Part shown: positions 13,683 through 16,971 of the stretch, in pieces
Numbering within the stretch: the stretch's first letter is position 1
How the letters are laid out: each line of letters starts with the position of its first letter
Origin: Peptostreptococcaceae bacterium
GTDB lineage: Bacteria > Bacillota > Clostridia > Peptostreptococcales > Acidaminobacteraceae
Reading direction: 5' to 3'
Length of the DNA: 33,638 bases
Assembly: GCA_027064135.1 (NCBI GenBank)
Contig: JAMOQG010000126.1
Span: forward strand, 1-33,638
Notes under the pieces: model-generated
The model's input: only the letters and a program-made list of their open reading frames with translations
What the model was told of the DNA's origin: nothing
Database searches by the model: none
Program-made: the position numbers and the translations under genes

Positions 13683-14538
13683 ATTAACCTCACCTGGTCA
13701 AATAAAAGGTATAATGAAAAAACATAATGTTAGATTTTCAAAAAGTTTAGGACAAAATTTTCTTATTAATGATAATATTATTGAAGAAATAATTAGTAGA
13801 AGCAATATTACTAAGGATGTTTCAGTTTTAGAAATAGGTCCTGGAGTTGGAGTTTTAACTCAAGCTTTAGCAGAGCATGCTGATAAAGTATTAGCTGTTG
13901 AAATAGATAATAAATTAATTCCTGTTTTAGAGGAAACTTTAAGTGAATATAAGAATGTAAGTGTTATTCATAATGATATTTTAAAAGTTGATATTAACAG
14001 TGAAATTGAAAAAAGATTTGATAATCCGGTTAAAGTAGTTGCAAATTTACCATATTATATTACTACACCGATTATTATGAAATTATTAGAAGAAAAAATA
14101 AATGTTGAAGAAATTGTGGTTATGGTTCAAAAAGAAGTTGCTGAAAGAATGGTTTCAAAATCAGGTGTTAAAGCATATGGCTCTTTATCAGTTGCGGTTC
14201 AATATTATTGTGATGCTTCAATAATTTTAGATGTATCAAGAGATAATTTTTTACCACCGCCAAATGTTGATTCAGCTGTTATCAGATTGAAAGTTAGAGA
14301 GAATCCAAAAGTAAAAGTAATAGATGATGATTATTTCTTTAAAGTAGTAAAAGGTGCATTTGCTTTAAGAAGAAAAACTTTGATTAATTCTTTATCAAAA
14401 TCTGCAATTGCTATAGATAAGGAAATTGTAATAGAAGTATTAACAAAACTTGGTTTTGATTTAAGAATTAGAGGAGAAAAACTTAATATAGAAGAATTTG
14501 CACAACTTGCAAATGAATTATATAAAGCCCAAAATTAA
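13675..14538 (+). CDS. rsmA: 16S rRNA (A1518/A1519-N6)-dimethyltransferase
   Basis: 287 residues; ATG at 13675 is preferred over an in-frame TTG at 13663 that abuts the AAGGAG site. SLGQNFLIN near 26 and the SAM motif VLEIGPGVGVLTQALA near 50 are followed by the catalytic NLPYYITTPI near 125. The C-terminal helical domain carries LPPPNVDSAVIRL and the FALRRKTLINSL motif. It dimethylates two adenosines of helix 45 (KsgA). It is last in the tatD operon and its stop codon lies inside a shared terminator, overlapping the convergent recU by 4 nt. Confidence 0.96.
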   Translation: MSRLTSPGQIKGIMKKHNVRFSKSLGQNFLINDNIIEEIISRSNITKDVSVLEIGPGVGVLTQALAEHADKVLAVEIDNKLIPVLEETLSEYKNVSVIHNDILKVDINSEIEKRFDNPVKVVANLPYYITTPIIMKLLEEKINVEEIVVMVQKEVAERMVSKSGVKAYGSLSVAVQYYCDASIILDVSRDNFLPPPNVDSAVIRLKVRENPKVKVIDDDYFFKVVKGAFALRRKTLINSLSKSAIAIDKEIVIEVLTKLGFDLRIRGEKLNIEEFAQLANELYKAQN

Positions 14539-14552
14539 TTTTGGGCTTTTTT
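14524..14552. terminator. Terminator shared by convergent rsmA and recU
   Basis: AAAGCCCAAAA, TTAA loop, TTTTGGGCTTT is a perfect 11-bp stem (14524-14549). On the plus strand it is followed by more T (to 14552); on the minus strand the T-run is short. Both genes' stop codons lie inside the hairpin. Confidence 0.88.
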
Positions 14553-15074
14553 CCATTTGACATAAGTATTTAATATTGGAAGATAGTTTAATATTCCGTT
14601 TGATTCTATTTCTATTTTAAAAATTTTATTCATTTCTTTATAAGGAATAGATTTTCTTTTCCCATTTTTACTTCCTTCATAGTATCTTAATATTTCTTCA
14701 AAAGGTAATAAGTAATATTCATCAAATGTTTTAAAATGGATAATAATAAATGCTAAACCACCTTGGAAATCAATATCAGACATATATTTAATTTGATGCT
14801 CATGGATATTTTGTATTGGAAGACTTTTTAAGAAAGTTTCTTTTGCATCAAATACGATAGACGTTCCTTGAATAATACCGTGAAAATCTACAGTTGATTT
14901 TTTTTCGAAAAAAGCTTTTGTTATCATTCCATTATCAGTTCTTTTAATAACTTTTATTGGAACATCAACTTTATCTATTCTTCCAAGTTTATTTATGTTG
15001 TAATAATCGTTGCTTATTATTATTAAATTTTCAAGTTCATCACCTCTATGACCTGTTGAATTCCATCTAGTCAT
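14535..15074 (-). CDS. recU: Holliday junction resolvase RecU
   Basis: 179 residues; ATG at 15074 is preferred because AAGGTGG lies 5-6 nt upstream. RecU features in order: GHRGDELENLIIISNDYY, KKSTVDFHGIIQGTSIVFDAKET with the metal-binding Asp/Glu and Lys of the nuclease core (about 77-100), NIHEHQIKYM, GGLAFIIIHF, YYLLPFEEILRYYE and GKRKSIPYKEM. It resolves recombination intermediates and helps chromosome segregation. In B. subtilis recU is next to ponA, not rsmA, so its position here differs. It is monocistronic, facing rsmA. Sequence upstream of it (15084-15396) is non-coding. Confidence 0.92.
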   Translation of the reverse strand: MTRWNSTGHRGDELENLIIISNDYYNINKLGRIDKVDVPIKVIKRTDNGMITKAFFEKKSTVDFHGIIQGTSIVFDAKETFLKSLPIQNIHEHQIKYMSDIDFQGGLAFIIIHFKTFDEYYLLPFEEILRYYEGSKNGKRKSIPYKEMNKIFKIEIESNGILNYLPILNTYVKWKKAQN

Positions 15075-15396: not shown

Positions 15397-15425
15397 TTGA
15401 CAAATTAAATGAGAGTGGTTATCAT
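15397..15425 (+). promoter_or_regulatory. Sigma-A promoter of the selenoprotein-glutaredoxin unit
   Basis: TTGACA (15397-15402), a 17-nt spacer and TATCAT (15420-15425). The start of transcription would fall near 15432, at the edge of the palindrome at 15434-15447. Confidence 0.8.
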
Positions 15426-15433
15426 ATAACTAC

Positions 15434-15447
15434 CCCCTATATAGGGG
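15434..15447. promoter_or_regulatory. CsoR/CstR-type operator palindrome over the start of transcription
   Basis: CCCCTATATAGGGG is a perfect 14-bp palindrome (one further C to the left) in a region almost devoid of G and C. CsoR-family repressors bind C-tract/AT centre/G-tract sites of this kind. It lies 8 nt after the -10 box and 3 nt before the RBS AGGAGG, where a bound repressor would block transcription. A CsoR-family gene lies 660 nt downstream (16106). The link is inferred. Confidence 0.65.
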
Positions 15448-15460
15448 ACAAGGAGGAAAT

Positions 15461-15754
15461 ATGATAAATATTTCAATTGAAGCAATAGATGCGATTAATC
15501 AAAAATACTATCAGGAAAATAAAGAAGTAAATGTAAGAGTTCAAATCAATGGAATAGGTTGAGGTGGGCCCACTTTTGGGATTGCACTTGATAGTGTAAA
15601 TGAAAATGATATTGTAAAAAAATTTGATTTATTTAGTCTTGTTGTTGAAGAAGAGTTAATCAAACTTTTTGGTGGTTTTGATATTGATTACTTAGATAGT
15701 TGGATTGGAAAAAGTATGATTATAACACCAAATAGAGGTGGATCGACTTGTTAA
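15461..15754 (+). CDS. HesB-like selenoprotein (Sec at in-frame TGA, residue 34)
   Basis: Read through TGA at 15560-15562 this is a 97-residue protein starting MINISIEAIDAINQKYY, with the Sec in NGIGUGGPTFGIALD, and ending NRGGSTC before TAA (15752-15754). An AGGAGG RBS precedes the ATG. The family is the HesB-related selenoprotein group (TIGR01911), small relatives of the IscA/HesB A-type Fe-S carriers in which Sec aligns with the first conserved Cys. Sec34 and Cys97 are the only two thiol/selenol residues, so one of the three IscA cysteines is missing. The sequence stays coding-like on both sides of the TGA, which rules against a simple pseudogene. It is followed 14 nt later by a glutaredoxin-like gene. 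The exact biochemical role is unknown for the family. Confidence 0.9.
15560..15588 (+). promoter_or_regulatory. Candidate bacterial SECIS element
   Basis: Directly after the Sec TGA the mRNA can fold: GGTG (15563-15566) with CACT (15085+500, i.e. 15585-15588), an internal loop, and CCCA (15569-15572) with TGGG (15577-15580) closing a CTTT loop. Position and size suit a SelB-binding hairpin. The fold was drawn by eye. Confidence 0.55.
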
Positions 15755-15768
15755 TATAAGGAGGAAAT

Positions 15769-15990
15769 ATGAAAGTAGTAGTTTTTTCATCAAATACATG
15801 TTCATACTGTAGCATGGCAAAAGAATATTTAAAAGAAAAGGGTGTAGAGTTTGAAGAAAAGAATGTTTCTGTAGATGCTGAAGCAAGAAAAGAATTAATT
15901 GCAAATGGATTTATGGGTGTTCCTGTAATATACGTTGGAGATGAAGTAATACAGGGTTTTGACAAAAATAGACTTGATGAATTATTATAA
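15769..15990 (+). CDS. Glutaredoxin-like (NrdH/YruB type) redox protein
   Basis: 73 residues, thioredoxin fold in minimal glutaredoxin form. The redox motif is CSYC at 11-14 (NTCSYCSMAKEYL); the cis-proline strand is GVPVIYVGDEVIQGFD near 50-65, as in NrdH and YruB-like proteins. RBS AAGGAGG is 4-5 nt before the ATG, and the gene is 14 nt after the selenoprotein, so both share the palindrome-controlled promoter. A terminator follows. The pairing suggests it reduces the Sec/Cys protein or handles persulfide on it; that is inference. Confidence 0.9.
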   Translation: MKVVVFSSNTCSYCSMAKEYLKEKGVEFEEKNVSVDAEARKELIANGFMGVPVIYVGDEVIQGFDKNRLDELL

Positions 15991-15998
15991 TTCTTTTT

Positions 15999-16025
15999 AA
16001 AGGAGATATCTTATATCTCCTTTTT
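15999..16025 (+). terminator. Intrinsic terminator after the glutaredoxin gene
   Basis: AAAGGAGATAT (15999-16009) pairs perfectly with ATATCTCCTTT (16013-16023) over a CTT loop, then T. Confidence 0.85.
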
Positions 16026-16049
16026 AATTATTTTAAAATATATTTAACA

Positions 16050-16078
16050 TTGACCATTAAAACTCAATTAGATATAAT
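16050..16078 (+). promoter_or_regulatory. Sigma-A promoter of the CstR-like regulator gene
   Basis: TTGACC (16050-16055), a 17-nt spacer and TATAAT (16073-16078). No C-tract/G-tract palindrome is seen here, so the regulator gene does not appear to be autoregulated through the site at 15434. Confidence 0.78.
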
Positions 16079-16105
16079 TAATTTAAGAATTTCGAGGAGA
16101 AGAAA

Positions 16106-16384
16106 ATGATTACTGATAATAGTAAAATAAAGAAAAATTTAGCAAATAGATTAAAAACTATTCAAGGACATATTTCTGGTGTGCAAAGAATGCTTGAAGA
16201 AGATAAACCTTGCGAAGAAATTTTATTTCAAATTTCTGCAATAAAATCTTCAATACATAAAGTTAATAATATTTTTTTAGAAAATTATGCAAAAGATTGT
16301 ATTTTGGATAAAGCTGAGAATAATAAAATTGAAGAAGCTGATTTAGACAATATTATTAAATCAATTATTAAATATTCAAAATAA
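16106..16384 (+). CDS. CsoR/RcnR/CstR-family repressor with a CstR-like Cys-Cys pattern
   Basis: 92 residues, DUF156 four-helix fold; NRLKTIQGHISGVQRMLEED near the N-terminus is the family signature. The sensing positions that are Cys36-His61-Cys65 in the copper sensor CsoR are here Cys36 (KPCEE), Tyr61 and Cys65 (NYAKDC). Loss of the His with both Cys retained is the pattern of CstR, which senses persulfides through a Cys-Cys polysulfide link, rather than of CsoR (Cu), RcnR (Ni/Co) or FrmR (formaldehyde). Own promoter; 26 nt before the HD-domain gene. The likely target is the palindrome at 15434-15447. Ligand assignment is inferred from residues only. Confidence 0.85.
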   Translation: MITDNSKIKKNLANRLKTIQGHISGVQRMLEEDKPCEEILFQISAIKSSIHKVNNIFLENYAKDCILDKAENNKIEEADLDNIIKSIIKYSK

Positions 16385-16410: not shown

Positions 16411-16971
16411 ATGAGAAAAGAAGCATTTGAATTATTAAAGAAGTATACTAAATCGGAAAGTTTATTAAGACATGCATTTGCTGTAGAAGCTGGTATGATT
16501 GCTTATGCAAAAAAATACGGTGAAGACGTTGATGAATGGGCATCGGTAGGGGTTTTACATGATGTTGATTTTGAATTATATCCTGAAACTCATCCTTTAA
16601 AAGGAGTTGAAATTTTAACGGAAGCTGGATATAGTGAAGAATTTATTAATGCTGTTAAAGGTCATTCTGATGCTACAAATACAAAAAGAGAAACGAAAAT
16701 GGCAAAAACTCTTTATGCAGTTGATGAATTTGCAAGTTTTATTGTTACTGTTGCTTTAATGCGACCAACTAAATTAGAAGGTATGAAATACAAATCATTT
16801 AATAAAAAATTTAAGACTAAATCTTTTGCTGAAGCAATTGATAGAGATCATTTAAGAAGAGCTGTTGAGGAATTAGGTGAAGATTTTATGGAACATGTTA
16901 ATTTGTTAATAAGTGAATTGCAGGAGCATGAAAAAACACTTAACGAAGATGGTTATAGTTTGTTTAATTAA
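16411..16971 (+). CDS. HD-domain hydrolase
   Basis: 186 residues. The HD-superfamily metal ligands are visible: LLRHAFAVEAG (His), VGVLHDVDFELYPETH (HD pair and following His) and VKGHSDATN. YAVDEFASFIVTVALMRP follows. Small stand-alone HD proteins of this type are mostly uncharacterised phosphohydrolases. RBS AGGGGGCG. It follows the CstR-like gene by 26 nt with no terminator between, so they are probably co-transcribed. A terminator closes it at 16994. Confidence 0.88.
   Translation: MRKEAFELLKKYTKSESLLRHAFAVEAGMIAYAKKYGEDVDEWASVGVLHDVDFELYPETHPLKGVEILTEAGYSEEFINAVKGHSDATNTKRETKMAKTLYAVDEFASFIVTVALMRPTKLEGMKYKSFNKKFKTKSFAEAIDRDHLRRAVEELGEDFMEHVNLLISELQEHEKTLNEDGYSLFN

Follow-up and report, generated by a model that had tools for sequence, protein, structure and literature searches.

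The 33,638-nucleotide stretch of DNA from a Peptostreptococcaceae bacterium analysed here (the window; contig C126 of a draft genome of 2.68 Mb and 97.9% completeness) encodes a HesB/IscA-like selenoprotein and a glutaredoxin-like protein (Grx) in one unit, followed by a repressor of the CsoR/DUF156 family. Comparison with related genomes indicates that this repressor is probably a CstR-like dithiol regulator controlling a persulfide/thiol-reduction regulon that includes the HesB-like selenoprotein. The genes, the predicted operator sites, their conservation and the linkage of the repressor family to genes for a CoA-disulfide reductase-rhodanese-TusA-DsrE2 polydomain protein (CDR) come from sequence comparison, from which we infer DNA binding, signal, direction of control and selenoprotein chemistry. 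A CstR-like sulfur-stress circuit with a HesB-like selenoprotein as an output had been proposed in the initial annotation of the window, and site conservation and CDR linkage now lend this proposal support. Across many clostridia-like anaerobes, a repressor of this kind, probably sensing reactive sulfur, appears to switch on the selenoprotein and, alongside it, enzymes likely to detoxify sulfur.

In the proposed circuit, the reduced repressor would bind C4-5/G4-5 palindromes lying over the transcription start and block transcription. A rise in low-molecular-weight persulfides or polysulfides would join Cys36 to Cys65 of the neighbouring subunit through a di- or trisulfide, the affinity for DNA would fall, and four units would be derepressed: the HesB-like selenoprotein with the Grx, the CDR, a CD1871A-type CxxC protein with NapH-like and ResA/TlpA-like proteins, and a dihydrolipoyl-dehydrogenase-like flavoprotein. 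In the selenoprotein, selenocysteine (Sec) 34 and Cys97 may then accept or reduce the sulfur of persulfides, after which the Grx would restore the protein. The literature describes CstR as a dithiol repressor in which di- or trisulfides bridge cysteines of different subunits (PMC9405070; PMC5480029; for the CstR-like YrkD, PMC9918477). Its targets include CoA-persulfide reductase, which CstR regulates in Enterococcus faecalis (PMC9405070), and the operators of the CsoR family, those of copper CsoR included, typically hold runs of at least four G or C (PMC10318464).

Conservation of the predicted operator upstream of HesB-like genes

Within the window, the pattern CCCC-N(3-9)-GGGG occurs once, as a palindrome with the core CCCCTATATAGGGG (15434-15447; C5 is counted from 15433) that begins 8 bp past the -10 box of the selenoprotein-Grx promoter (Table 1), where transcription is expected to start. 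The single C4-TATATA-G4 palindrome that the initial annotation placed at this start is thus present as described. Judged by the composition of the window, a genome of this size should contain between 1.1 occurrences (with independent bases) and 3.9 (under a first-order Markov model), so that a lone palindrome is modest evidence; it is the conservation of the site in relatives that makes it significant.

The comparison set comprised 61 genomes, including the one under study, 50 of which have a HesB-like match, and the best 30 loci, again including the window's own, were examined. Counting as a strict site any CCCC-N(3-9)-GGGG within 150 bp upstream of the gene, with expectations taken from shuffles, we found it at 13 of the 17 HesB loci with an adjacent Grx gene (0.36 expected) and at 4 of the 13 loci without an adjacent Grx found (0.11 expected). 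Five further genomes, whose best match was at first another HesB copy, carry the site at the Grx-linked copy in all cases (L077-L081), bringing the Grx-linked HesB genes with a site to 18/22 genomes examined; the Sec copies picked first in four of these five genomes (L019, L028, L033, and L034) are siteless. Grouped by protein form, the Sec-form HesB genes number 29 (one in the window, 28 in relatives), and 17 of them are preceded by a strict site, compared with 0.36 expected.

A class-wide sample of 391 genomes, of which 41 have a match at E 1e-15, gave the same tendency. Thirty of its 49 match places were examined, and removal of three repeats of genomes already counted left 27 loci (23 Sec, 4 Cys). 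The strict site precedes 8 of these 23 further Sec-form genes (0.16 expected) and none of 21 Cys-form loci (0.01 expected). Most of the Cys forms (16 of 21) come from named organisms, e.g. Desulfosporosinus, Clostridioides difficile, and Clostridium pascui; the search pattern used for named organisms had Cys in place of Sec and so brought in these 16 loci, which served as a comparison. The resulting contrast between Sec and Cys forms, 25/52 vs. 0/21, has a Fisher p of 2e-5, a value that is overstated because related genomes are taken as independent. Control windows farther upstream or downstream hold at most one strict match per group. The spacers differ between loci, and the conserved parts are therefore the C and G runs. 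A relaxed motif, ACC-N(4-10)-GGG, is found at 18/29 (4.7 expected) and 14/23 (2.7 expected) Sec-form loci and also, above expectation, at Cys forms (5/21 vs. 1.0 expected), so that only the strict counts are relied on here.

Several points weigh against this reading of the site. The HesB loci were best matches and not a random sample, and related genomes are not independent; the Cys-form set holds near-copies (four of C. difficile and three of Clostridium), and its shuffle expectation is so low (0.01) that the weight lies in the contrast between Sec and Cys forms. The strict site is missing from 12 of the 29 Sec-form loci and, class-wide, from 15 of 23. Four of the former 12 show a weaker form by eye (L007, L008, L018, and L030), and another four are the already mentioned second copies, from genomes with a site at the Grx-linked copy. 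In the genome of a further one (L012, from G004), no PF02583 (CsoR/RcnR, DUF156) match was found, and L020, L026, and L035 are without explanation. Conversely, G047 has a site at its HesB gene yet no PF02583 match, in a genome that is 100% complete.

As a separate observation, the C. difficile Cys-form HesB genes (L179, L183, L184, and L185) are preceded by TACC-TTATAT-GGGTA over a likely -10 region, a weak CsoR-like palindrome recognised with the relaxed motif as well as by eye.

Linkage of HesB-like, CsoR-family and CDR genes

A PF02583 match is present in 50 of the 61 genomes. In 17 of the 61, including the one under study, the distance between a HesB-like gene and a CsoR-family gene on the same strand is at most 10 kb, and the neighbourhood noted in the window thus recurs in relatives. 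The most constant partner of the repressor family is the CDR gene: 27 of the 50 genomes have a CsoR-family gene no more than 3.5 kb from a CDR-type match, and in 20 of these 27 the distance is 100 bp at most. Thirty of the CDR-type matches were examined and divide fully into three groups. Fifteen have a strict site of their own (within 150 bp upstream), eight lie behind a Grx gene, and seven lie behind an ArsR-type gene. As the eight genes of the second group follow the Grx gene in the same direction, they could be read from the HesB promoter, and in one of them (L069) the gap contains a further C5-N8-G4. In the third group, the Pfam domain of the ArsR-type protein was confirmed in four of the seven loci, with the other three alike by eye, and the absence of a C/G palindrome from these loci (Table 1) suggests a swap of the sulfur sensor, in which other lineages apparently have an ArsR-type regulator in place of the CsoR-type one at this enzyme gene. 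The arrangement in the window is unusual, with the repressor gene right behind HesB-Grx and the CDR gene elsewhere. It also speaks against the proposed circuit that in this genome the repressor gene is neither beside the CDR gene nor itself preceded by a site, the scan of the window with CCCC-N(3-9)-GGGG showing no C/G palindrome near the repressor's own promoter-like site.

The linkage also bears on whether the repressor stands near the palindrome by coincidence, the palindrome being bound by another protein or acting as a hairpin in the mRNA. The site of G047, where no CsoR-family gene was detected, and the ability of the palindrome to fold as a hairpin near the mRNA 5' end would agree with this. 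We nevertheless regard such a coincidence as highly improbable, since G004 lacks both a CsoR-family match and a site, all seven CDR genes behind an ArsR-type gene are siteless, 17 genomes have HesB and a CsoR-family gene no more than 10 kb apart, and the family's operators are typically palindromes with C or G runs (PMC10318464). A PF02583 search of the genome under study returned a single match, the repressor of the window; hence any CsoR-family protein that binds the palindrome, if encoded in the assembly, is this repressor.

Predicted regulon in the genome and its close relatives

A scan of the whole genome for CCCC-N(3-9)-GGGG returned 16 distinct places, and the backward pattern returned none. 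Treating all 16 as operators was dropped, as nine lie in a dispersed repeat, two are terminator-like by eye and one (C54) is unclear. The remaining four stand at gene starts, and all four precede genes for thiol/sulfur redox (Table 1). The initial annotation had recommended such a scan, and the result gives three units besides the selenoprotein-Grx pair, namely CDR, the CxxC/NapH/ResA-like operon and the dihydrolipoyl-dehydrogenase-like gene; the predicted regulon is wider than the pair named there. The CDR protein combines Pyr_redox, rhodanese, TusA, and DsrE2 domains, and its best NCBIfam match is CoA-disulfide reductase, under the model cut-off. The operon on C52 (L119:2521-4070) encodes a CD1871A-type CxxC protein of 42 amino acids, a NapH-like 4Fe-4S membrane protein and a ResA/TlpA-like thioredoxin, and its position behind CCCCCTATATATAGGGG hints at a role of the CD1871A family in sulfur or thiol stress. 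The dispersed repeat is intergenic, contains CCCCTATAAGGGG and CCCCTGAAGGGG hairpins and often lies near contig ends.

Comparable sites are found in relatives. G001, of the same genus and 86% complete, has sites with changed spacers at the CDR and flavoprotein genes; a third lies ahead of the start of a CxxC-protein homologue. In G013, from another genus, the genes with sites are HesB, CDR, a paralogue of CDR and one for a 4Fe-4S protein. Single sites carry little weight in G011 and G012, where the pattern read backwards turns up just as often as the pattern itself; among the 13 other loci inspected in G011, G012, and G013, several sites lie inside genes and look like chance. Two features of G001 count against the circuit: its CxxC homologue is without the second cysteine and has a different gene next to it, and the HesB-Grx-repressor locus was not found. 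When 13.0-20.0 kb of the window were searched against G001 at the DNA level, no match up to 19.8 kb exceeded 60 bp, and as the surrounding stretch with ksgA and recU is therefore missing as well, the absence of the locus is probably an assembly gap.

Residues of the repressor and the nature of its signal

The repressor passes the PF02583 model with 84.8 bits (cut-off 22.8). It has Cys36 and Cys65 and a tyrosine at position 61, exactly as initially annotated. The accompanying idea that Tyr61 marks a CstR was dropped, as the residue is present and lacks diagnostic value: related repressors have His, Asn, Gln, Ser or Tyr at this position. In the clade of 27 sequences that includes the window's repressor, Cys36 and Cys65 are present in all, and position 61 is occupied by His (n = 16), Asn (n = 5), Tyr (n = 3), Gln (n = 2), or Ser (n = 1). 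The remaining 39 sequences of the family have His (n = 36) or Tyr (n = 3) there, with Cys36 in 39/39 and Cys65 in 37/39; because both cysteines are near-universal outside the clade too, the pair alone does not set CstR apart. Several syntenic relatives have lost the histidine while both thiols stay unchanged, which is more in keeping with a dithiol sensor than with a copper sensor, and the circuit would be a case of a CsoR-family sensor losing its copper ligand and keeping both thiols.

The assignment to CstR is limited by three observations that point the other way. His61 in 16 of the 27 clade members would allow copper binding in the family, tree support for the clade is moderate (85/87), and the PDB chain 7mq1, which is named a copper repressor in the PDB and which we take to be the CstR of Streptococcus pneumoniae, does not group with the clade; its branch is long (1.79 changes per column), the columns are few and the placement is unsure. 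7mq1 has Asn at the position corresponding to 61. Its position outside the clade restricts the claim to a protein that works like CstR, as opposed to a member of a CstR clade.

The main alternative for the signal is Cu(I), with the repressor acting as a copper-sensing CsoR and the regulon as a response to copper damage in which the HesB-like protein and Grx repair or protect Fe-S clusters and thiols. Membership of the CsoR family, the histidine in most of the clade and the C or G runs, which are typical of operators in the whole family including those of copper CsoR (PMC10318464), would all agree with copper. We consider this improbable, as Tyr61 breaks the Cys-His-Cys ligand set for Cu(I) and Asn, Gln or Ser stands there in syntenic relatives, the recurring partner is the CoA-disulfide reductase/sulfurtransferase gene, and none of the four gene-start sites is at a copper gene. 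The genome has one copper-ATPase match above the cut-off (C83:5538), and this gene stands behind another helix-turn-helix (HTH) gene; neither a strict nor a relaxed site occurs in the 5.5 kb around it or in the 4 kb around a second, weaker copper-ATPase match, which lies behind an ArsR-like gene. The protein encoded ahead of the copper ATPase gene (L263:1932-5066) has an HTH_17 domain and a Cys/Ser-rich tail, and is perhaps the organism's true copper regulator.

A second alternative keeps the thiol-based mechanism and replaces persulfide by another electrophile or oxidant, such as disulfide stress, hypothiocyanous or chlorine species, nitroxyl, quinones, or formaldehyde. The predicted regulon does include disulfide-reductase-like and thioredoxin-like proteins, and nitroxyl also induces cst in Staphylococcus aureus through a C31-C60' disulfide of CstR (PMC5480029). 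Against this stand the rhodanese, TusA, and DsrE2 modules of the most constant partner, which serve sulfur transfer, and we judge a signal other than persulfide to be rather unlikely. A persulfide-responsive repressor would also agree with the control of sulfurtransferase/CoA-persulfide-reductase genes that is characteristic of CstR, here indicated by linkage and by the shared predicted operator.

The HesB-like selenoprotein

The HesB-like open reading frame contains a single in-frame TGA, at codon 34, placing Sec within a GxGUGGP motif. The reading of this codon as Sec is backed by tRNA-Sec and SelB matches above cut-off on contig C11 of the same genome, ~3 kb apart, and by the 30 best-matching loci, including the window's own, of which 29 have a UGA at this codon. 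Less favourable are the two small hairpins after the UGA (z -0.8 and -1.3), neither of which stands out clearly as a selenocysteine insertion sequence (SECIS), and the scores against the two best family models, TIGR01911 and NF038090 (47.2 and 52.1 bits), which are below the curated cut-offs (66.35 and 85). The protein shares Sec in GxGUGGP with the HesB-like selenoprotein family that these models describe.

IscA/ErpA Fe-S carriers have three cysteines, the last two as CxC. In the HesB-like proteins, only the Sec position and one C-terminal Cys are invariant (19/19 aligned sequences), a set different from that of these carriers. HesB-like selenoproteins were listed as a family as early as 2006 (PMC1794560), and the function of a Methanococcus member was stated as not clear in 2024 (PMC11097638). 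A Sec/Cys pair encoded next to a glutaredoxin would fit redox chemistry on sulfane sulfur. We tentatively propose, as a possibility somewhat short of even, that the Sec-form HesB of Clostridia is a dedicated glutaredoxin-coupled persulfide reductase or carrier, under CsoR/CstR-type control in many families of the class. If so, it would be a new selenoenzyme of reactive-sulfur defence, and the HesB-like Sec protein would have a role other than Fe-S assembly; the advantage of Sec would be that a selenol is quicker than a thiol at attacking and releasing sulfane sulfur. The same genome also contains a second HesB-like selenoprotein gene (C125:6880-7134, L128), around which no C/G palindrome was found.

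Relation to known persulfide-responsive regulators

Persulfide-responsive regulators of the CsoR family are already known, and the predicted system resembles several of them. It has a dithiol CsoR-family repressor like the CstR proteins of S. aureus and E. faecalis, a likeness drawn from descriptions of these proteins, the presumed CstR chain 7mq1 being the one compared, with an unsure placement outside the clade. As in E. faecalis, where CstR regulates CoAPR (PMC9405070), control of a gene of the CoA-disulfide-reductase/rhodanese type is predicted. In S. aureus, CstR likely controls one operon directly (PMC5480029), whereas here the selenoprotein-Grx, NapH/ResA-like and dihydrolipoyl-dehydrogenase-like units are predicted targets as well. 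YrkD of Bacillus licheniformis is likewise CstR-like, with two conserved cysteines, and belongs to a sulfur cluster with DsrE and TusA homologues, but it controls a sulfide-oxidation cluster (SQR/PDO), and the available part of the source mentions no selenoprotein (PMC9918477). TTHA1953 of Thermus thermophilus provides a precedent for thiol-based CsoR-family control of sulfur genes distant from the regulator gene; unlike the predicted repressor, it recognises TAC/GTA repeats without C/G runs and controls sulfur-oxidation (Sox) genes (PMC10318464).

The initial annotation knew of no earlier link between a selenoprotein and a persulfide-sensing repressor, and in the literature searched, mostly open-access, we likewise found no description of a selenoprotein under a persulfide-responsive CsoR-family regulator, no study pairing a selenoprotein with CstR and none combining HesB, selenocysteine and persulfide; papers naming both a selenoprotein and CsoR appear, among those listed, to be unrelated. 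The CsoR-type operator common to HesB and a CoA-persulfide-reductase-type gene offers a specific and cheaply testable hypothesis for HesB-like selenoproteins and, if true, would tie the biochemistry of selenium to the defence of anaerobes against reactive sulfur.

Locus layout

The window has a G+C content of ~26%, and the features of the locus and the sites discussed above are given in Table 1. An intrinsic-terminator-like hairpin sits between the Grx and repressor genes.

Table 1. Features of the selenoprotein-Grx-repressor locus (window positions) and related sites elsewhere (preceded by contig or locus)
Feature	Coordinates	Strand	Evidence or remark
recU (Holliday-junction resolvase), divergent neighbour	14535..15074	-	Pfam RecU E 2.1e-50
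Sigma-70-type promoter of selenoprotein-Grx unit, TTGACA-17-TATCAT	15397..15425	+	11/12 consensus matches; TTGACA 15397-15402, spacer 17 bp, TATCAT 15420-15425
Predicted repressor operator, C5-TATATA-G4 palindrome (gene-start site 1)	15433..15447	.	Sequence; kept in relatives; HesB-like selenoprotein + Grx
HesB/IscA-like selenoprotein gene, 97 aa, Sec34, C-terminal Cys97	15461..15754	+	In-frame UGA 15560-15562
Glutaredoxin-like protein (Grx), 73 aa, CSYC site	15769..15990	+	PF00462 E 1.4e-19 (Pfam)
Intrinsic-terminator-like hairpin closing selenoprotein-Grx unit	15999..16023	+	Sequence
Repressor's own promoter-like site, TTGACC-17-TATAAT	16050..16078	+	Sequence
CsoR/DUF156-family repressor, 92 aa, Cys36/Tyr61/Cys65	16106..16384	+	PF02583 E 5.4e-24
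HDIG-domain protein directly 3' of repressor	16411..16971	+	Domain match
Gene-start site 2	C98:34913		Upstream of 837-aa CDR polydomain protein
Gene-start site 3	C52:2521		Perfect CCCCCTATATATAGGGG after TTGACA/TATATT; before CxxC/NapH/ResA-like operon
Gene-start site 4	C153:12599		Before 485-aa flavoprotein like dihydrolipoyl dehydrogenase or mercury reductase
Dispersed-repeat copies	L002:30-130, L003:170-270, L123:1266, L125:1257, L126:1029, L127:1032, L264:494-594		
CDR gene behind ArsR-type gene	L148, L149, L151, L153, L154, L155, L156		Without C/G palindrome

The divergent recU is outside the regulon; besides the window's own, it is present in 10 of the 29 HesB loci of relatives (L007-L035).

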